From Lentimicrobium sp. (GTDB lineage: Bacteria; Bacteroidota; Bacteroidia; Bacteroidales; Lentimicrobiaceae), in contig JAMLHF010000031.1 in the NCBI GenBank assembly GCA_023957275.1, positions 1 to 50,052 on the forward strand: a stretch of DNA of 50,052 nt, written 5' to 3'. Positions within the stretch are counted from its first letter, which is position 1. Every line of letters begins with the position of its first letter. This document shows, one piece after another, positions 8,244 to 50,052 of the stretch. The position numbers were made by a program, and so were the translations under genes. A model generated the notes under the pieces. The model searched no databases, was not told where the DNA came from, and worked only from the letters and a program-made list of their open reading frames with translations.

Positions 8244-9245
8244 TTACATTCCGGCGCTCTGAGTGGCGGTGATGGCAACAAGGTTCACAATATCGCTCAC
8301 CGAACACCCTCTGGAAAGATCATTGATGGGTGCAGCCATCCCCTGAAGTACAGGGCCAATGGCTTCGGCGCCGGCCAGGCGCTGTACAAGCTTGTAGGCA
8401 ATATTTCCCGTTTCAAGGCTCGGGAAAACCAATACATTGGCTTTACCGGCGATCATACTGCCCGGAGCTTTATGTATCCCGACCGACTCAACGATGGCTG
8501 CATCGGCCTGAAGTTCCCCGTCGATCTGAAGCCAGGGCGCCTTTTCCTTTGCTATGCGGGTAGCTTCAATCACCTTATCACACAGGGCGTGTTTGGCGCT
8601 TCCTTTCGTAGAGAAACTTAGCATGGCTACCCTTGGCTCCAGCCCCGCGATAGATTGAGCCGTACGTGCAGTGGATATGGCTATTTCGGCCAGCTCCGGC
8701 GCAGTGGGATCGGGATGCACAGCACAATCGGCAAAAACGAGAATATTCTCCGGCACATAAGGATTATCCTTGAAAATCATAAGAAATGCACCGGAAACCA
8801 CACTGATGCCGGGCATGGTTTTAACAATCTGGAATGCGGGGCGCAATACATTCCCCGTTGAATTCATCGCACCGGCCACCTCCCCGTCAGCCTCGCCTGC
8901 TTTGATCAGAAGCGTAGCAAGATACAGCGGATCTTCAGTAAGCACAAGGGCTTCCTCATAGGTAAGCCCCTTCCCTTTTCTGATTTCATACAGCAATTCA
9001 GCATACTTTTCTTTATCCGGGTTATTAAGGGGGTCAATAATCCGGGCGCCGGCCGTAAACTGCAAGCCCCACTCCTGACTTTTCCGTTCAATCTCTGCCT
9101 TGTTTCCCAGCAATATAATCCTGGCAAGCTTTTCTTTAAGAATATAGTCTGCGGCTTTCAGTGTCCGCTCTTCGGTACCTTCGGGTAAAACAATGCACTT
9201 GCTGAGTTTCTGTGCATTCTCCCTTATGGTTTTCATTAAAGTCAT
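8244..9245 (-). CDS. pta: Phosphate acetyltransferase
   Basis: Starting at 9245 the protein has 333 residues, the length of short-form Pta. Motifs include 'IVLPEGTEERTLKAADYIL' near the N-terminus, 'GAMNSTGNVLRPAFQIVK', 'FADCAVHPDPTAPELAEIA', 'MLSFSTKGSAKH' and 'VLVFPSLETGNIAYKLVQRL'. It converts acetyl-CoA plus phosphate to acetyl phosphate, the substrate of the AckA encoded two genes on. An in-frame ATG at 9296 is rejected because a TAnnTTTG promoter element (9301-9294) overlaps it, so the transcript would start downstream. The ATG at 9245 gives the 17-residue lead before 'IVLPEG' that I recall for Bacteroides homologues; ATG 9236 is the alternative. Confidence 0.95.
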   Translation of the reverse strand: MTLMKTIRENAQKLSKCIVLPEGTEERTLKAADYILKEKLARIILLGNKAEIERKSQEWGLQFTAGARIIDPLNNPDKEKYAELLYEIRKGKGLTYEEALVLTEDPLYLATLLIKAGEADGEVAGAMNSTGNVLRPAFQIVKTMPGISVVSGAFLMIFKDNPYVPENILVFADCAVHPDPTAPELAEIAISTARTAQSIAGLEPRVAMLSFSTKGSAKHALCDKVIEATRIAKEKAPWLQIDGELQADAAIVESVGIHKAPGSMIAGKANVLVFPSLETGNIAYKLVQRLAGAEAIGPVLQGMAAPINDLSRGCSVSDIVNLVAITATQSAGM

Positions 9246-9293
9246 GAGTAAATTCAGATTAACGTGAATGGTCTGAGGTTGAAAATCAGGCGG

Positions 9294-9301
9294 CAAATTT
9301 A
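9294..9301 (-). promoter_or_regulatory. Bacteroidota -7 promoter element for pta-hbd-ackA
   Basis: The minus strand reads TAAATTTG, a full match to the Bacteroidota -7 consensus TAnnTTTG, ending 48 bases before the chosen pta start. The nearest TTG (-33) on the same strand is about 25 bases upstream, longer than the usual 19-21, so the -33 element is weak. The element decides between alternative pta starts. Confidence 0.55.
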
Positions 9302-9448
9302 GAACTTAATCAGGAGTGTTCCTAAGCAATTCAATCTTAATTTGTCAGATAGTCTGCCGGATTATCAGTTACATTTCTCCGGCTTCATGGCCGGCTGTTT
9401 TAATAATAGTCCTGATGCTATGTGTTAAAAAGTGGCAGAAATTTAGAT

Positions 9449-9456
9449 TAATTTTG
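9449..9456 (+). promoter_or_regulatory. -7 promoter element directly upstream of the DUF4271 gene
   Basis: TAATTTTG matches TAnnTTTG fully and ends 8 bases before the ATG at 9465, so a transcript from here would be leaderless or nearly so. No convincing -33 TTTG is seen at the right spacing. Confidence 0.5.
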
Positions 9457-9464
9457 CACCCCGG

Positions 9465-10403
9465 ATGGCAGCTCAGAATTCGTATAACCAGTATCAGGGA
9501 AACAGCACTCCCTTTTTGATTCAGCAAGCCGATACAGTTCCTGCAACGGACACTGTGCGTAGCTATTACAGTTATCTGGAAGACAGCCTGAATTTCCCCT
9601 TGGCAGATACGCTGTTCCGGTTCGAACTCCGCGAGATCATCCTCCCCGATCGCGCCACTGACAGTGCCGCCACCGGTCCTGTTTACAATATGCCTCCCTT
9701 GTTTTCGACACAACTCCACCATGGCAGGCAAATACAGGAGCCCATCCGCAGGCCGGCACAGGGATATGACTGGCTCACCATCCTGCTGCTGGCTTGTGTG
9801 GCAATTCTGGCCTGGATAAGATTTTATTATACCCGAAGATTAAAACAATTATTCAGGGCAGTCTACGCAAGGCACCATGTAAATCAGCTGGTAAGAGACG
9901 GCAACCTGAGCAGTGAGCGGATCAGTTTCGGGCTCGGGTTGATTCTTGTTACCGGAGTGAGCACAGTGATATTAAAACTAGCCGGCGAAAACCTCAGTGA
10001 AATGCTTGGAATTAAGAACTCATTCTTCACATTTTTGGTTATAGCAGCGGCCCTTGGTCTGCTCTGGCTGCTTAAACTCCGGGTGATCAAAGGAGTTGGC
10101 AGCTTATTCAGAACCAGGCAAGCCAGCGATGAATACCTCCTGACAAATGTATTGTTTAATATTACAGCCGGATTCATCGCATTTCCTTTTATCATCGCCT
10201 GGCATTTCAGTCAGCTTCAACTGCTGTTGTATGTGATTTTGGCTATTTTTCTTATTGCCGCGGCAATGAGGATGTTAAGAAATATTTCACTCGGGTTGTC
10301 GGTGCAATCGTTTTCGGTTGTGTATTTATTTTTGTATCTTTGCACCCTCGAAATTTTACCGTTTCTGTTTGTGTATAAATATTTCACAATATTAGACTGG
10401 TAA
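9465..10403 (+). CDS. DUF4271 domain-containing membrane protein
   Basis: The 312-residue product has a soluble N-terminus of about 110 residues, then a membrane domain with about seven hydrophobic segments, beginning 'DWLTILLLACVAILAWIRFYY' in character and ending 'LPFLFVYKYFTILDW'. The layout, and the position directly upstream of hemD, match the Bacteroidota family DUF4271, whose function is unknown. The start at 9465 gives no signal peptide, and the N-terminal region would be cytoplasmic or translocated depending on topology. The gene after it is hemD (gap 61 bases), so the two are likely co-transcribed, possibly with an extra promoter for hemD inside this gene's 3' end. Confidence 0.82.
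   Translation: MAAQNSYNQYQGNSTPFLIQQADTVPATDTVRSYYSYLEDSLNFPLADTLFRFELREIILPDRATDSAATGPVYNMPPLFSTQLHHGRQIQEPIRRPAQGYDWLTILLLACVAILAWIRFYYTRRLKQLFRAVYARHHVNQLVRDGNLSSERISFGLGLILVTGVSTVILKLAGENLSEMLGIKNSFFTFLVIAAALGLLWLLKLRVIKGVGSLFRTRQASDEYLLTNVLFNITAGFIAFPFIIAWHFSQLQLLLYVILAIFLIAAAMRMLRNISLGLSVQSFSVVYLFLYLCTLEILPFLFVYKYFTILDW
10335..10342 (+). promoter_or_regulatory. Possible internal -7 promoter element upstream of hemD
   Basis: TATCTTTG matches the TAnnTTTG consensus within the 3' end of the DUF4271 gene, about 120 bases before hemD. The -33 region (10311-10315) reads TTTTC rather than TTTG, so it is only a candidate. Confidence 0.3.
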
Positions 10404-34545: not shown

Positions 34546-34793
34546 AGCGAATGCGCTCGTCTATGCCCTGTCTGACTTTCACCGTTGGCGCGGACGTCCT
34601 CGTCCGGGCAGGGATAAACCAACACCGATGCAAGTATTCATATAAAACCCTAAGAAGACCTGACAAGTCGGAAGAAGACTTGTCAGGTCAGGCAGATTGA
34701 CTCGTCTTTGCGCAATTTATTCGTGCATTCGTGGCAATTTGCAGACATGTTCTCCCGGACAATCCCGTCTGAAATTCAGCGCATGCTTTTCCG
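34546..34793. repeat. Intergenic palindrome (CCTGACA family) and dispersed 'ttcgtgcattcgtgg' word
   Basis: The gap between converging genes holds a perfect 12-bp inverted repeat (34658-34669 with 34677-34688, arms starting ACCTGACAAG, 7-base loop). Next comes a stretch near 34710-34742 resembling part of the tandem array at 45.7 kb. A second hairpin with the same ACCTGACA start and 7-base loop lies at 45838-45870, so these are copies of a dispersed palindrome. Confidence 0.7.
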
Positions 34794-38342: not shown

Positions 38343-39191
38343 ACAGGCAATGGCCAGCTGAAGCACTCATCAAGCCTGGTGGGTGCGGCATTTTGGCTAC
38401 TCCCGGTTTTCGGCTAAAGCCGGTTGGTTCTGGATTCCGCTTTTCCCCGGGCTGAAGCCCGGAGTCAGGCAAGCAGATTTTTCCGGCTTTTCACCGGTTA
38501 TTGGACGTCTGAACCAGAACTTCGGCTCAATCAACACAAGCTTTGGTTATCTATATCCTGCAGTTTCTGATGATAATCAATTCCGCTTTATTACCCCCGG
38601 CTTGAGCCGGGGGTAATAAGCTGCTGACAAACGCGGGGGCTTTAGCCCAAAAGCCGGTAGAATTCTATTCGCAGCCCGGCTTGAGAAAAACCCGCAAGCC
38701 CGGACGCTCCCCAGGTTTGGCTGCTCCCGGTTTTCGGCTAAAGCCGGTTGGTTCTGGATTCCGCTTTTCCCCGGGCTGAAGCCATGAGTAGACAAGCACT
38801 TTTTTTCTGACTTTTCATCTGAAACCTGACATCTGAATCAGGGATTAAGCTTAACCCACAAGAGCATTTAAGATATTGAGCTTTAATTCACAAAAACTGC
38901 CTGGAAAACTGAAAAACCAGATGAGGACGCGAAGGTCAAATCAACTTTAAAGATAATGGTGAACTGAACTACTATAAAATTATCGCTAACGGCACTTTTC
39001 CTTTTTTCTTTTTCAAACACATAGAAATAACGAAATTACTTTCACCTGCATACATTTCCGGTTTTCAACCACTACCGTATTAATACAAGGCCTGTTAGCA
39101 GCCGATAATTCAGGCAGATGTGAAAAATTCCTCAACTTTTTAGTATCTTAGCTGTTTAATTCGCCACTGCTCTGCATATCCCGCGCCCGCA
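38343..39191. repeat. Intergenic repeat region with duplicated 68-bp unit and GGCT/AGCC palindromes
   Basis: No gene is seen in this 849-base gap. Two copies of a 68-base unit (38392-38459 and 38716-38783) are nearly identical over their whole length. Between them lies a perfect 15-bp inverted repeat with a 2-base loop (38588-38602 with 38605-38619), core CCCCCGGCT/AGCCGGGGG. Several smaller GGCTnnAGCC palindromes occur in the units. The last 350 bases are AT-rich; TATCTTAG at 39144-39151 is a one-mismatch -7 candidate for the response-regulator gene. Confidence 0.8.
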
Positions 39192-43795: not shown

Positions 43796-44280
43796 AAGAC
43801 AAAGATAATCAAACCAGTGTTTCAGACATACAACCGTTTCAGGTATGCCTTAAAAGAACAATATTTCAACCGTTTAAGTTCCCCTGCTACAAACACGGAT
43901 CATAAAGCCGGATAAAAGGCTCCTGAAAGCAATGCCTCCCCACGCAGCCCATGAGATGATCCCTGCTCAGATTAACAAATAACCAAACAATTGGTTTTGA
44001 ATGAGGAAACAGAACTTTAGCCCGTAAATAAAGTTTGGCAGAGGATATTCTTATGCAGGGTTATTCCCTGACAAGCGACCAGGCTTATCCCTATGAAACC
44101 TGAGGATGGTGAGGTATTCAGAAACCGGAAACCTTCACCGGTGTCACCTGGGCTGGTTTAAAAAAAACCTTGAAAATCATCGGTTCTTAAAAGCGGGAAG
44201 CAATTAAAGCGGCATATTATTACGTAAAAAAATCAGTCATCCGGGGGAATGACTGATCAAAGAAAAAGCGGTCAATGTGG
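43796..44280. other. Intergenic region with hybrid-kinase promoter element
   Basis: In this 485-base gap the minus strand has TATCTTTG at 43807-43800, a full -7 match for the kinase gene, with TTG 23 bases further upstream (43833-43831). The rest shows no gene, RNA or clear repeat. Confidence 0.5.
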
Positions 44281-44562
44281 TTAATTGAGGCTGTAAACGG
44301 TAAGATACTCCCATTCGCGGTTGATCTCCAGAAAGCGGAGCACCGCCGGATGGGAAGGCCTGACACGCAAACCATTCATAACTGCATAGTGCATACCGTG
44401 AAGGATCAGATCGGAAGCGAGCCCTTTACCCCTGAGCGATCCCGGAACATAGGCACTGTAAAAATCCAGCACCTCCCCACGGCGGCGATAAGCAAGGTAG
44501 GATTCCATTCCTTCATGATTTAAGATAAACTTTTCACCGGTATCGATGATGGTGCTTTTCAT
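44281..44562 (-). CDS. Small GNAT-type N-acetyltransferase (YjdJ-like)
   Basis: The 93-residue product matches the short GCN5-related acetyltransferase family: 'FILNHEGMESYLAYRRRGEVLDFYSAYV' type start, 'VPGSLRGKGLASDLILHGMHYA' carrying the acetyl-CoA loop (RGKGLA), and 'GLRVRPSHPAVLRFLEINREW' with the conserved P-S/C-P-x-V/xxF end. The substrate is unknown. It stands alone at the edge of the gene-poor region. Confidence 0.88.
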   Translation of the reverse strand: MKSTIIDTGEKFILNHEGMESYLAYRRRGEVLDFYSAYVPGSLRGKGLASDLILHGMHYAVMNGLRVRPSHPAVLRFLEINREWEYLTVYSLN

Positions 44563-44742
44563 AGATTTTAACTGTTTCTGGCACTGATATTAATAAATTG
44601 ACAGGTAAAAGTACGACGCATATTGCGAGATTGTACTCCTGCAACTGCAAAATAAGTATAAATACTACCTTTCGAGGATGCAGATGTTCAGATGATTAGG
44701 GGTTTGGGTGTTCAGGGGTTCAGGGGTTTAAGTTTTATTTAA

Positions 44743-45783
44743 AGATTCAAGGATTCAAGGATTCAAGGATTCAAAAATTCAAAAAATTCAAATGATTCCA
44801 GGCCGTGTGCACGGGACAAGGATTCCAAAAATATTTTGTGGTTTTTGGTGTTTCTGTGTTTTAGTGGCAAATAATATTCGTGTCCCGATCGCTATCGGGA
44901 TCGTGGCTTAAGAATTCAAAGATTAGCTTCGCTGAGCTCCCTTCGGTCGGTTCAAGGATTCAAGGATTCAAGGATTCAAAAATTCAAAATTCAAATGATT
45001 CCAGGCCGCGTGCACGGGACAAGGATTCCAAAAATATTTTGTGGTTTTTTGTGTTTCTGTGTTTTAGTGGCAAATAATATTCGTGTCCCGATCGCTATCG
45101 GGATCGTGGCTTAAGAATTCAAAGATTAGCTTCGCTGAGCTCCCTTCGGTCGGTTCAAGGATTCAAGGATTCAAAAATTCAAAAATTCAAAAATTCAAAT
45201 GATTCCAGGCCGCGAACACAGGACAAGGATTCCAAAATATTTTGTGGTTTTTAGTGTTTCTGTGCTTTAGTGGCAAATAATATTCGTGTCCCGATCGCTA
45301 TCGGGATCGTGGCTTAAGAATTCAAAGATTAGCTTCGCTGAGCTCCCTTCGGTCGGTTCAAGGATTCAAGGATTCAAAAATTCAAAAATTCAAAAATTCA
45401 AATGATTCCAGGCCGCGAACACAGGACAAGGATTCCAAAATATTTTGTGGTTTTTAGTGTTTCTGTGCTTTAGTGGCAAATAATATTCGTGTCCCGATCG
45501 CTATCGGGATCGTGGCTTAAGAATTCAAAGATTAGCTTCGCTGAGCTCCCTTCGGTCGGTTCAAGAATTCAAAAATTCAAATGATTCCAAATGATTCCAA
45601 ATGATTCCAGGCCGCGTGCGCAGGACAAGGATTCTAAAAATATTTTGTGGTTTTTGGTGTTTCTGTGCTTTAGTAGCAAAAAATATTCGTGCATTCTTGG
45701 CTTAAGAATTCAAGGATTAGCCCCCAACGCCGTTGGCAGGGTAATCTGTTGAACTCAATGCGTTCGATTCAAGGATTCAACTT
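44743..45783. repeat. Tandem array of about five ~203-bp units with internal octamer arrays and hairpins
   Basis: The word tgattcca recurs at 44793, 44996, 45200, 45403 and 45602, giving periods of 203, 204, 203 and 199 bases. Each unit has four parts: octamer runs (GATTCAAG, AAAAATTC), a core with attttgtggttttt and gtgtttctgtg, a hairpin TCCCGAT-CGCT-ATCGGGA (first copy 44883-44900), and a GC-rich end (agcttcgctgagctccc). Units 1-4 are close to identical; unit 5 is shorter and loses the hairpin. There is no plausible coding frame. Confidence 0.95.
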
Positions 45784-47264
45784 TGCGGGAGAATTGCATC
45801 TGCTATTAACCAATATTGCCCGATTGCGTCTTTTATACACCTGACAGGTTAAAAGGAAACCTGTCAGGTGAATCCCGCCCACCTGCCGGCACGGATGTTA
45901 AAACCAGGATGCAATCCGGATTATTTATCAAAAAAAAGCACTTTGCCGGTTTGAGCTGCAAACCTGCCGGTGCTCCCGGTGTGGAAAATACCGCCCCGTT
46001 TTCCCCTGTTCAACCCCAACCGCTTACTATAAACACCCATAAAAACCAATTTATACTCAGCGCATTAAAAACAAAGGATAAATAAACTTCATCAAATAAA
46101 AAATCCCGTAAACTGCTGCAATGCCATTCCTTTAACAAAAATTTAACAAAAAAGATGTAAAAACTTTTTTTACTACAAGCCTCTTCTCCGGCAGGGCCAA
46201 CTGACAGTATCAGATACAATCAAGAAAATTATATGTATTTCATTTATTTACAAGGCATTAGGCATTACCCACCGGTCTTGTAAACAAATATACAGCCCAT
46301 TGAAAGTAAAATATTTTTACACCTCATCCTATTTATATATTTTTTTACATCATATTTAGATTTCTATCTTATTTTTATAATCTTTACCAGACAAGCAATT
46401 CAGCATCAAAATACGTGTTTTTACTAATGTTTTTTTATAAAAAAGGTATTACTTTTAACCTGATTACGGATAAATACACTACAACATCCGTGGTGCATAG
46501 AAAGCCTGCTGATTTTTCCGGAAACGGGCGTTTGGGAGAGCGCAAAAAGCAGCAAAGCACGGATGAACAACCTGAAGTTGGGAGATTAAAATCTTACACC
46601 GGGAAAATCAACTGCCAAAGGCCTAAGAACCGGCGGCGGAATGTTAAACCCATAAAACTGTATATTTTGGGGGCAAAATATACCTGCTTAATCAAGGTTT
46701 CTCACGAAACCAATCTGAAACCGGCTTTATATCCGGCTACATTAACAGCGCCGCTTCAACGCGGGCCGTTTTGCTGCACATTCAGTTGCAGACGCGAAGT
46801 TCAGACTTCGCCAAGCTGCCGGTTGACCACCCGCATCGCGGATCTGGCCAGCCGGCAATCGCTTTTTACCGGATTTCCGGCATTGAAGACCGCCCCTCCT
46901 TCAATTACAAGCATCATCAGCATTCAGTATTTTGCCGCCGGGATACAGGAGTAACCGGCATAACAGAAATTATTCACCATTTATCAACCTATGCAATGAT
47001 TGTCTTTACCACTGTCGTCTTTCCCTTCCGCATCTGCCGGTCAATACCTGAACCGGCTATCAGGATGCAACACGGGATCAGTGACCGGTGCAGCGGCCAT
47101 TGCCTGGATTTAACACACCGGGTTTGAAGGCAGACACCTCACCGAAACGCATTCCCGCAAGGACGCCCTTACAAAGGCGCGGAGCCTGCAATATCCCTGC
47201 CGGCATCTTTCGGAAGGCGTGTTTTAATGATGTTGTATCGTCTTTCTTAGCCCAACTCCCGCGT
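45784..47264. other. Gene-poor region with two palindromes
   Basis: I see no convincing gene in about 1.5 kb. A perfect 13-bp inverted repeat lies at 45838-45850 with 45858-45870 (CACCTGACAGGTT and its complement, 7-base loop), related to that at 34658. A GCGAAGT-TCAG-ACTTCGC hairpin lies at 46794-46811. The stretch 46100-46450 is very AT-rich with T-runs. Open frames here (for example 46415-46954) lack family signatures. An in-frame extension of the next gene back to 47085 reads as non-protein-like sequence. Confidence 0.6.
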
Positions 47265-50052
47265 ATTATTGTACGCGCGCGTGCCTGTTCCTTAATATTA
47301 TCATTTTTACTTATCTCCCTGAATATCAAGGCACAACAACCCGTTGTCCTGACCTGGCCCCTCACCGCCCCCACCGAAACGGCCATCCCCTCTCCCTACG
47401 CCACCCTCACCTTCTCGGCCGGCAAAGGCGTTGATTCGCTGCGCTTTAGCGATTCTTTCGGCGTGATGGCCAACGGCTGGAACACCGACAACCAGGACCC
47501 TGAAGCTTACTTCGAGTACACCCTTACCCCCGCCCCCGGTACCAGCCTTGAAATCAACCGGCTGAACTTCGAAGTAAGCCTGAGCCGCGTGAATATGCGC
47601 ACCTCGGTGCAATACTCCTACGACGGTTTCCGCATGCAGAAGACCCAGATCGGTCACACCATCTACATCGCCACCCATGAGCCCCGCAACCTGCCCGTAA
47701 AAACCAGCCTCCGGGTCACCTACCCCCAGACCCTGAGCATCCGCATCTACGGCTGGAGCACCGTGGATTACCTGGTGGACTTCAACAACCGCAATGTGGT
47801 GTTCGAAGGACTGGTGTACGGCAAAGACCTGCTCGCCCAAACCACCGGGGAAACCCCGGCCGAACCTGAAGTACAGGAACTTCCGGTCCCTGAACCTGAA
47901 GAACAGCTGGTAGTCGGCCCCGAACCCGATCCGCTGGCCGCTATGGCCGTGATGCCGCCGCAGGATACGGTGGGTGGTGATAATAACCTGGTGAAAGCGC
48001 CGATGGGAACTCAGACTTACAGTACACCAGGTTCATACACTTTTACGGTACCTGCAGGAGTTTACAGTGTGGATATTCAATGCTGGGCAGGCGGTGGAGG
48101 TGGCGGTGGGACATACGCGCAAGGTTTTTCATGGGAAGGCGGCGGTGGTGGCGGTGGCGGTGGCTTTCGTGGAGGTGTGATCAATGTTTCACCTGGTGAT
48201 ATAATAACCATTGCAGTTGGAACCGCTGGTAGTGGTGCTGGAAATAATAATGCAGGTAATAACGGCGGAAATTCTTCTGTTTCGCACTCAAACGGCACAA
48301 TAACAGCTTATGGGGGTTCAGGAGGTGCTTGTCAGAATGGCGGTGGCGCCGGAGGCACAGGTGGTGGTGGGAATTATAGCGGTACTGTTTCTAATCGTAT
48401 TAGCTGGAATGGCGGTACAGGCGCATCGGGAAATTCGGATAATGGTGGTGGTGGAGGTGGTGGCGCCGGAAATGCTCAAAATGGTGGCTCTGGCTCAGGT
48501 ACCACAGGTGGTAATGGTGGTAATGCTCTTGGTGGGAATGGTGGAAATGGTTCAACCAATAATAGTGCAGGTGGAATTGGCCAAGATTTTGGAGGTGCCG
48601 GCGGTGGCGCAAGTGATAATAATGCTTCAGTTGGGGGGAATGGTGCAGGAGGACAAGTCATTATCACCTGGCCCGATTGCATCAATCCAACTATCTTCGA
48701 TGTAACCGGTGGCGGTTCATACTGCTCCGGTGGCAGTGGATTACCGGTTGAGCTTTCAGGATCTGAATCAGATGTGACCTATCAACTGTACCGGGATGGC
48801 AATCCTGTTGGTTCTGCAATTAATGGAACAGGAGGTGCCATAAACTTTGGAAACCAAACAATAGCCGGAACATACACGGTGGTTGCAACCAGAACTGTTG
48901 GTAGCTGTACCTCAAATATGAATGGGTCTGCTGTGATTACGATAAATCCCTTGCCAACAATCACTCTTGGCACAAATCCCTCTATATGCGCCGGCACAAC
49001 ATCTGCCGAACTTCCATATACTTCAACATCTGGTTCTCCAAACAGGTACAGTATAGATTACAATGCTGCGGCCAATGCAGCAGGTTTTATAGATATTACA
49101 GACAATGTTTTGCCCTCAACCCCGATCATCTTAACAAGCCCGGCTGCAGCACCAGCTGCAACCTATACTGCTGTTTTAACAGTATCAAATTCAACAACAG
49201 GGTGTACCAGCACCGGAAATAATTTCACAGTAACCATCAATGCTCAGCCAATTGCTCCTGCCGAAGCCCTGACAAACAGAAATAATTTCTGTGCGGATGA
49301 TTCCGGAGATATCTCACTTTCAGTAACCGGCGGTGCAGGCACAACGGTTGGTTGGTACACAGGCAGTTGCGGCGGCTCTCCGGTTGGCACCGGCAATCCG
49401 CTGGTGATTTCTTCCCCAACAGCAAATACCACCTACTATGCAAGATGGGAATCTCCCACCTGCACGCCTTCATCATGTGCTGATGTCACTGTCACAGTCA
49501 ACCCCCTGCCCACCCCCCCGGCCTCAATCACCTCTTCAGCTAATCCGGTTTGCGTCAATGCCGGAGGTAATATCACCCTTACTGCTACCGGAGGTTCCGG
49601 CACCACCCTGCGTTGGTTCACCGGAAGTTGCGGAGGAACCGCAATAGGCACAGGCAACCCCCTGGTGATTGCATCCCCTGTCACCACCACCACCTATTTT
49701 GCCCGCTGGGAAAACAGTTGCGGTAATTCTGCCTGTGCCAGTCTGGAAGTTACTGTAACGCCCCTGCCTGTCCCGCCCACCTCGGCAGGTGTTGACCGCA
49801 ATAATTTCTGTGCCGACGACGGAGGCGATATTACCCTGACAGCCAGCGGCGGTTCAGGGGCTACACTTCAGTGGCATTCAGGCTCATGCGGCGGTACATT
49901 GGAAGGAACGGGAACTTCACTGACGATAGCTTCTCCAACTGCAACAACTACTTATTATGCCCGCTGGGTAAACGACTGCGGCATTTCCACCTGCGCTGAA
50001 GTAACCGTAAATGTGCTTCCGCTTCCCACAGCTCCAACGAATGCCAGCGTTG
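47265..50052 (+). CDS. Giant secreted protein with glycine-rich and repeated Ig-like domains (N-terminal part)
   Basis: The frame runs off the right edge after about 929 codons. A signal peptide is evident ('LILSFLLISLNIKAQQ'). Then come about 180 residues of beta-rich domain, a Pro/Glu-rich linker ('EVQELPVPEPEEQLVVG'), and a glycine-rich domain at about 48010-48670 opening 'FTVPAGVYSVDIQCWAGG', with long runs of Gly/Asn. Ig-like repeats follow. The last three, starting near 49281, 49540 and 49800, are about 86 residues each, share 'GGxGTTLxWxxGSCGG' and 'TTTYYARW' motifs and have two or more cysteines each. It is probably a surface or type IX-secreted adhesin-like protein. No ATG precedes the signal peptide in frame; ATT 47265 is used here as a placeholder, with TTG 47124 or GTG 47088 further up. 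Confidence 0.82.
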   Translation, partial: MIVRARACSLILSFLLISLNIKAQQPVVLTWPLTAPTETAIPSPYATLTFSAGKGVDSLRFSDSFGVMANGWNTDNQDPEAYFEYTLTPAPGTSLEINRLNFEVSLSRVNMRTSVQYSYDGFRMQKTQIGHTIYIATHEPRNLPVKTSLRVTYPQTLSIRIYGWSTVDYLVDFNNRNVVFEGLVYGKDLLAQTTGETPAEPEVQELPVPEPEEQLVVGPEPDPLAAMAVMPPQDTVGGDNNLVKAPMGTQTYSTPGSYTFTVPAGVYSVDIQCWAGGGGGGGTYAQGFSWEGGGGGGGGGFRGGVINVSPGDIITIAVGTAGSGAGNNNAGNNGGNSSVSHSNGTITAYGGSGGACQNGGGAGGTGGGGNYSGTVSNRISWNGGTGASGNSDNGGGGGGGAGNAQNGGSGSGTTGGNGGNALGGNGGNGSTNNSAGGIGQDFGGAGGGASDNNASVGGNGAGGQVIITWPDCINPTIFDVTGGGSYCSGGSGLPVELSGSESDVTYQLYRDGNPVGSAINGTGGAINFGNQTIAGTYTVVATRTVGSCTSNMNGSAVITINPLPTITLGTNPSICAGTTSAELPYTSTSGSPNRYSIDYNAAANAAGFIDITDNVLPSTPIILTSPAAAPAATYTAVLTVSNSTTGCTSTGNNFTVTINAQPIAPAEALTNRNNFCADDSGDISLSVTGGAGTTVGWYTGSCGGSPVGTGNPLVISSPTANTTYYARWESPTCTPSSCADVTVTVNPLPTPPASITSSANPVCVNAGGNITLTATGGSGTTLRWFTGSCGGTAIGTGNPLVIASPVTTTTYFARWENSCGNSACASLEVTVTPLPVPPTSAGVDRNNFCADDGGDITLTASGGSGATLQWHSGSCGGTLEGTGTSLTIASPTATTTYYARWVNDCGISTCAEVTVNVLPLPTAPTNASV

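Follow-up and report, generated by a model that had tools for sequence, protein, structure and literature searches.

A ~203-bp intergenic tandem array composed of dispersed repeat words in Lentimicrobium sp.

The DNA considered here, referred to as the window, is a 50,052-nucleotide stretch of Lentimicrobium sp. (positions 1–50,052 of contig JAMLHF010000031.1, assembly GCA_023957275.1). Near its right end, a block of ~203-bp composite units (44743–45783, no strand assigned; 4.7 copies by TRF) lies in a non-coding gap, with a GNAT gene on one side and a giant surface-protein-like gene on the other. The left neighbor encodes a small GNAT acetyltransferase (PF14542; 44281–44562, reverse strand), and the array begins ~180 bp ahead of its start. 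The right neighbor is a long open frame (47088–50051, forward strand) that runs off the contig end, with 988 amino acids seen and a true start that may lie later. Its counterpart in the congener G001 (2,865 amino acids seen) carries HYR, Ig_7, Gly_rich_2, and DUF11 domains; the cut, adhesin-like frame of the window aligns well with G001 at 47200–47800, and poorly or not at all beyond. No open reading frame longer than 65 amino acids touches 44563–45800, where the longest is 65 amino acids, and codon-phase bias is absent from the aligned flank (45400–46300). A coding repeat is rejected on these two grounds.

TRF reports 44746–45691 as a tandem repeat with a period of 203, 4.7 copies, 95% matches, and a score of 1629. 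The ~203-base tandem array noticed in a preliminary description of the window is thus real, as assembled. Cores (GATTCCAGGCCG) begin at 44794, 44997, 45201, 45404, and 45603, and define units U1 (44794–44996), U2 (44997–45200), U3 (45201–45403), U4 (45404–45602), and a partial unit, U5 (45603–45783), all on the forward strand. An octamer run, (TTCAARRA)n, precedes the U1 core (44746–44793, forward strand). Within U1, a “GTG” module that is dispersed in the genome (ATATTTTGTGG...TTCGTG; 44831–44882, forward strand) is followed by a hairpin, TCCCGAT-CGCT-ATCGGGA (44883–44900, no strand), and by the module AGCTTCGCTGAGCTCCCTTCGGTCGG (44925–44950, forward strand). Further copies of AGCTTCGCTGAGCTCCCTTCGGTCGG occupy 45128–45153, 45331–45356, and 45534–45559, and the other hairpins 45086–45103, 45289–45306, and 45492–45509. 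The hairpin sequence, TCCCGATCGCTATCGGGA, is exact at 44883, 45086, 45289, and 45492, i.e., in units 1–4 only; allowing 2 mismatches reveals no additional site in the window, and 100 shuffles gave 0 matches.

The preliminary description counted five copies, four of them almost identical. Five cores are indeed present, but the fifth belongs to a partial unit whose right end is unlike that of the others. Likewise, the remaining repeat units are near-alike but fall into two pairs. Within the 134-bp core, U3 and U4 show zero differences and U1 and U2 are 2 substitutions apart, while 5–6 substitutions separate the U1–U2 pair from the U3–U4 pair. U5 differs from each of U1–U4 by 9 substitutions plus gaps, the missing hairpin among these.

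G001, a member of the same genus represented by 2 contigs, is syntenic with the window and is the only congener with an aligned array locus. Its orthologous locus holds one unit, with the same DNA flanking both sides. This unit is 3 substitutions away from U5 and does have the hairpin, reading TTCGTG-TCCCGATCGCTATCGGGA-TCTTGG where U5 reads TTCGTG-CAT-TCTTGG; U5 is therefore the orthologous unit. Judging from the alignment, U5 lost or swapped its hairpin, in agreement with the earlier claim of a loss in the last unit, and in U5 the place of the G001 hairpin is taken by TTCGTGCATTC (45686–45696, forward strand). As had also been pointed out, TTCGTGCATTC recurs at 34720, which is intergenic between two genes.

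Copy number at the orthologous locus is thus five (the last partial) in the window versus one in G001. Recent amplification, as originally proposed, fits U3 and U4. It does not extend to a fresh amplification of U5, since U1–U4 lie 9 substitutions from U5 and U5 lies 3 from its G001 ortholog. Given these distances, the origin of the array would involve a gain here or a loss in G001: either an ancestral U1-type unit was lost by G001, or a U1-type unit arrived from elsewhere and was amplified here. The reverse case is seen at a second locus, where a tandem array of 328 bp × 2.5 copies in G001 (L032, 3449–4260) corresponds to a single copy in the window (~38392–38868). Intergenic copy-number change between the two species therefore runs both ways.

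With the array excluded, the surrounding block (44250–46050, no strand) is much alike in the two species, at 96–100% identity per 50-bp bin, with sharp drops on both sides to mostly 56–80% in the adjoining bins. Its non-coding parts are 98.5–98.9% identical to G001, versus 73–83% in seven of eight other non-coding stretches and 92.4% in the eighth. Four-fold sites differ from G001 at 2 of 45 positions in the GNAT gene versus 213 of 964 in four neighboring genes (Fisher p = 0.0025). The simplest reading of these comparisons is that the block was probably exchanged recently between the two species; constraint rather than exchange is a possible reading. The same block contains a further hairpin, ACCTGACAGGT...ACCTGTCAGGT, at 45839–45869. 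Sequence from around this hairpin matches G001 at 21 dispersed places, and some of these matches follow one another in tandem, spaced 141 and 183 bp apart.

A search of the array block against its own genome gave 50 additional matches, spread over 16 contigs besides that of the array and none of them full-length (40 of 43 candidates scored), which bears out the proposal that the unit is assembled from dispersed modules. In the loci inspected as examples, the order of the components (octamer runs, GTG module, AGCTTCGCTGAGCTCCCTTCGGTCGG, and hairpins) differs from that in the array. With at most seven candidates scored per genome, block matches were found in 20 of 60 relatives, its own genome included; 14 of these belong to the genus (19 genomes) and 6 to the rest of the order (41 genomes). 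The octamer pattern occurs in 4 of 395 genomes of a phylum sample that has only six members of the same order; the count includes the source genome, which has 104 overlapping matches. In a collection of 84,980 species that may omit near relatives, the junction of module and octamer was found in 8 stretches; these come from 5 MAGs whose titles name Bacteroidales, Bacteroidetes, or Lentimicrobiaceae. A 23-base GTG-module pattern had no match in the same collection. From such searches, the modules appear to be mostly confined to this genus.

Other arrays are likewise built of array words. Among 21 sequences submitted to TRF (the window plus 20 loci), these were found at the genus loci L037 (117 bp × 2.8 copies), L045 (92 bp × 2.0), and L046 (90 bp × 3.6), and arrays without array words were also present. 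L035 of genome G000 includes a long, intergenic-looking stretch (8500–10000) with repeated paragraphs of other words, namely, AAGAAGT heptamers and GAAATCCGAAATCCG. Genome G555, from a different family of the order, contains octamer-like runs of its own, of the GATTAGCA type, and the hairpin palindrome lies between their words; its loci L169, L171, L173, L226, L227, L231, and L233 repeat the layout of the array with different words. The listed matches of the open-access literature include no description of the array words or of the palindrome, and the sole listed match to the sequence strings themselves is a microRNA paper on leptospirosis.

No unusual-fold or RNA-family signal emerged. RNA fold z-scores of the unit are ordinary (−0.40 and −0.05), and the window has no Rfam match at gathering score; a search of 44200–46600 gave one sub-threshold match (E 0.12) at 44226–44273. 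A known non-coding RNA or RNA element is rejected on the fold and Rfam results. Promoter-like sites (7 versus 6.7 in shuffles) and terminator-like sites (2 versus 3.7) are not enriched, and none of the latter falls on the hairpins, so intrinsic termination by the hairpins is rejected. The suggestion that the array could be a structural or transcribed element was thus not upheld by the folds, Rfam, or the terminator-like sites. Since folds are ordinary, Rfam lacks a match at gathering score, and promoters and terminators are not enriched, a neutral minisatellite is preferred.

Accordingly worded, the array is likely a neutral, non-coding intergenic minisatellite made from lineage-specific repeat words. 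Its copies lie head to tail, and their number differs between close relatives (five, the last partial, versus one, in one congener). The unit would be a mosaic of words scattered in the intergenic DNA of an uncultured Bacteroidales genus, comprising octamer runs, (TTCAARRA)n, the GTG module, and AGCTTCGCTGAGCTCCCTTCGGTCGG, with an 18-bp palindrome as an optional component. Copy number may be altered by slippage on the octamers and by unequal exchange between units, and modules such as the hairpin may be swapped via exchange with dispersed copies; we infer both these routes of recombination and the absence of function. Taken alone, the array is a minisatellite of the ordinary kind, if unusually composed. 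More broadly, it points to a lineage in which the intergenic DNA is made up of a limited repertoire of octamer runs, modules, and hairpins, and these seemingly recombine.

Three other explanations of the array have been weighed. A regulatory or transcribed role for the array or its flank, whether ahead of the GNAT or giant surface-protein gene or as a repeated small RNA, is improbable. Such a role would suit an array start ~180 bp before the GNAT start, a GNAT upstream region that aligns with genome G011 to about window position 44669, and non-coding flanks that are nearly identical to those of G001 (98.5–98.9%). However, it is at odds with the fold z-scores, the lack of Rfam matches at gathering score, the shuffle-level counts of promoter- and terminator-like sites, none at the hairpins, and the single unit that suffices in G001. 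An assembly artefact, in which the true copy number differs, is also unlikely. Several dispersed matches do occur at contig ends (C22:1–35, C135:2–50, and C94:31357–31395 of 31,395), so the assembly breaks at such repeats, and the U3 and U4 cores are identical; nevertheless, the units carry distinguishing variants, both array flanks are syntenic with G001, and a miscount would not remove the array. Finally, a transposable nature of the unit, or its mobilization by a transposable element in the manner of a REP/RAYT system, is very improbable: the hairpin is dispersed and the source genome has four Y1_Tnp matches, but no full-length unit beyond the array turned up in the genome (the best other match is 276 bp at 73%, with 40 of 43 candidates scored), the four Y1_Tnp matches have no hairpin, octamer, or CCTTCGGTC within flanks of ≤1.5 kb and only three bare TTCGTG words there, and a GTAG or CGTC tag, allowed at 0–2 bases from the stem, was found on 0 of 124 hairpin ends in 62 contexts. 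REP/RAYT is rejected on the missing tags and on the Y1_Tnp flanks, which also speak against the unit being a known transposon end, the refuting case named in the preliminary description, as far as Y1_Tnp is concerned.

The hairpin has a wider distribution of its own. A slightly degenerate form is present in 13 of 19 genomes of the genus. Within the order, the palindrome TYCCGATNGCTATCGGRA is patchily distributed: 54 of 295 genomes have it, as do 40 of 183 genera, and site numbers range from 0 to ~46; a reversed control of TYCCGATNGCTATCGGRA had one match seen, in genome G639. The window and other loci together supply 62 distinct contexts, with outer stem pairs of TC/GA in 43 and TT/AA in 16; the stems therefore change in a paired way. 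The hairpin sits among many different repeat words, and apparent hairpin-within-hairpin contexts exist at L094, L150, and L151.

Presence and absence of the hairpin can be compared directly at orthologous sites. Three differences were observed: U5 is empty and G001 filled; L034 reads GAGCTC-CCTTCGG-TCGGTTC where L046 reads GAGCTC-TCCCGATAGCTATCGGGA-TCGGTTC; and one site differs between L035 and L044. All three are swaps inside a repeat word and could be accounted for by conversion with a dispersed copy. Sites filled in both species (L096/L147, L099/L078, L153/L146, L156/L144, and another L035/L044 site) argue against frequent movement of the hairpin. In total, 11 locus pairs were compared; L101/L094, L157/L094, and L085/L089 gave no long alignment, and the L038/L042 alignment contains no hairpin. 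At L203, a locus outside the genus, the hairpin lies in a gap to which orthologous stretches of two congeners (L213 and L214) align; both lack the hairpin, although at 73% and 67% identity the exact junction is not decisive; this search covered six genomes including the query’s own, with L215 stopping short of the site and two genomes having no match. A second empty-site search outside the genus found no orthologous site.

Flanking sequences provide a further line of evidence. For other families, 40 contexts from 40 stretches were collected and 9 with similar flanks removed, to leave 31. Direct flanking repeats of at least 4 bp occur at 5 of these sites, versus 0.18 expected, and 0 of 20,000 shuffles reach 5. 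Four-base matches in this set number 4 at the junction, 2 and 3 at one base off, and 0–2 further off. Repeats of at least 5 bp are not in excess (1 of 31 sites; 1,301 of 20,000 shuffles reach that), and one removed context, L165, has a 5-bp flanking repeat. In the set from the window’s genus and other loci, a T...A boundary is present in 61 of 62 contexts; among 27 kept sites, 4 have direct repeats of at least 4 bp, a number reached by 1 of 5,000 shuffles. Sites without such a repeat are the majority in both sets (26 of 31 and 23 of 27), and on inspection several contexts can be read equally well with the hairpin taking the place of a 3-base spacer that separates two words. Since most sites lack a repeat and tandem words can mimic one, insertion of the hairpin is suggested, not proven, and a clean target-duplication reading is weakened by the tandem words.

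These patterns hint that the hairpin may be a very small mobile palindrome. In its full form, tentative and rather less than probable, the proposal is that TYCCGATNGCTATCGGRA is a free-standing 18-bp mobile palindrome that makes 4–5-bp duplications, inserts between or into intergenic words, nests in its own loop, and has spread patchily among families of the order, with the array representing one amplified hairpin-bearing unit. To our knowledge, no bacterial mobile element is as small as 18 bp. The patchy spread of the palindrome would call for an enzyme or repair route capable of moving so short a sequence, and the orthologous filled and empty sites of congeners make its mobility testable.

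Several known systems resemble the array and its hairpin in part. Bacterial intergenic minisatellites, or VNTR loci, consist of head-to-tail copies that differ in number between relatives and have no coding function seen. The array shares all three features, whereas its unit combines octamer sub-runs and a palindrome in a mosaic of dispersed, lineage-specific words. The STRR repeats of cyanobacteria are short tandem runs of 7–8 bases scattered in intergenic DNA. Runs of this kind are shared by the array, but its words are different, it occurs in another phylum, and its runs are joined to palindromes and longer modules. As for the hairpin, GTAG- and CGTC-tagged REPs are also short dispersed palindromes, and PMC3733652 gives CGTC-1 4-base loops, lists Bacteroidetes as one of the phyla that have CGTC repeats, and describes these as apparently without a dedicated transposase. 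In contrast to such REPs, the array hairpin is untagged, its arms vary from TC/GA to TT/AA, and its host words are many and different. Mitochondrial GC clusters and repetitive hairpin-forming elements are not known to have a gene of their own. They are described as small repeated DNAs that are mobile or hairpin-forming (PMC4478555, PMC2800124). They are organelle elements, unlike the palindrome described here; in kind, judged by description, organelle GC clusters (PMC4478555) are nonetheless the nearest likeness to the hairpin.
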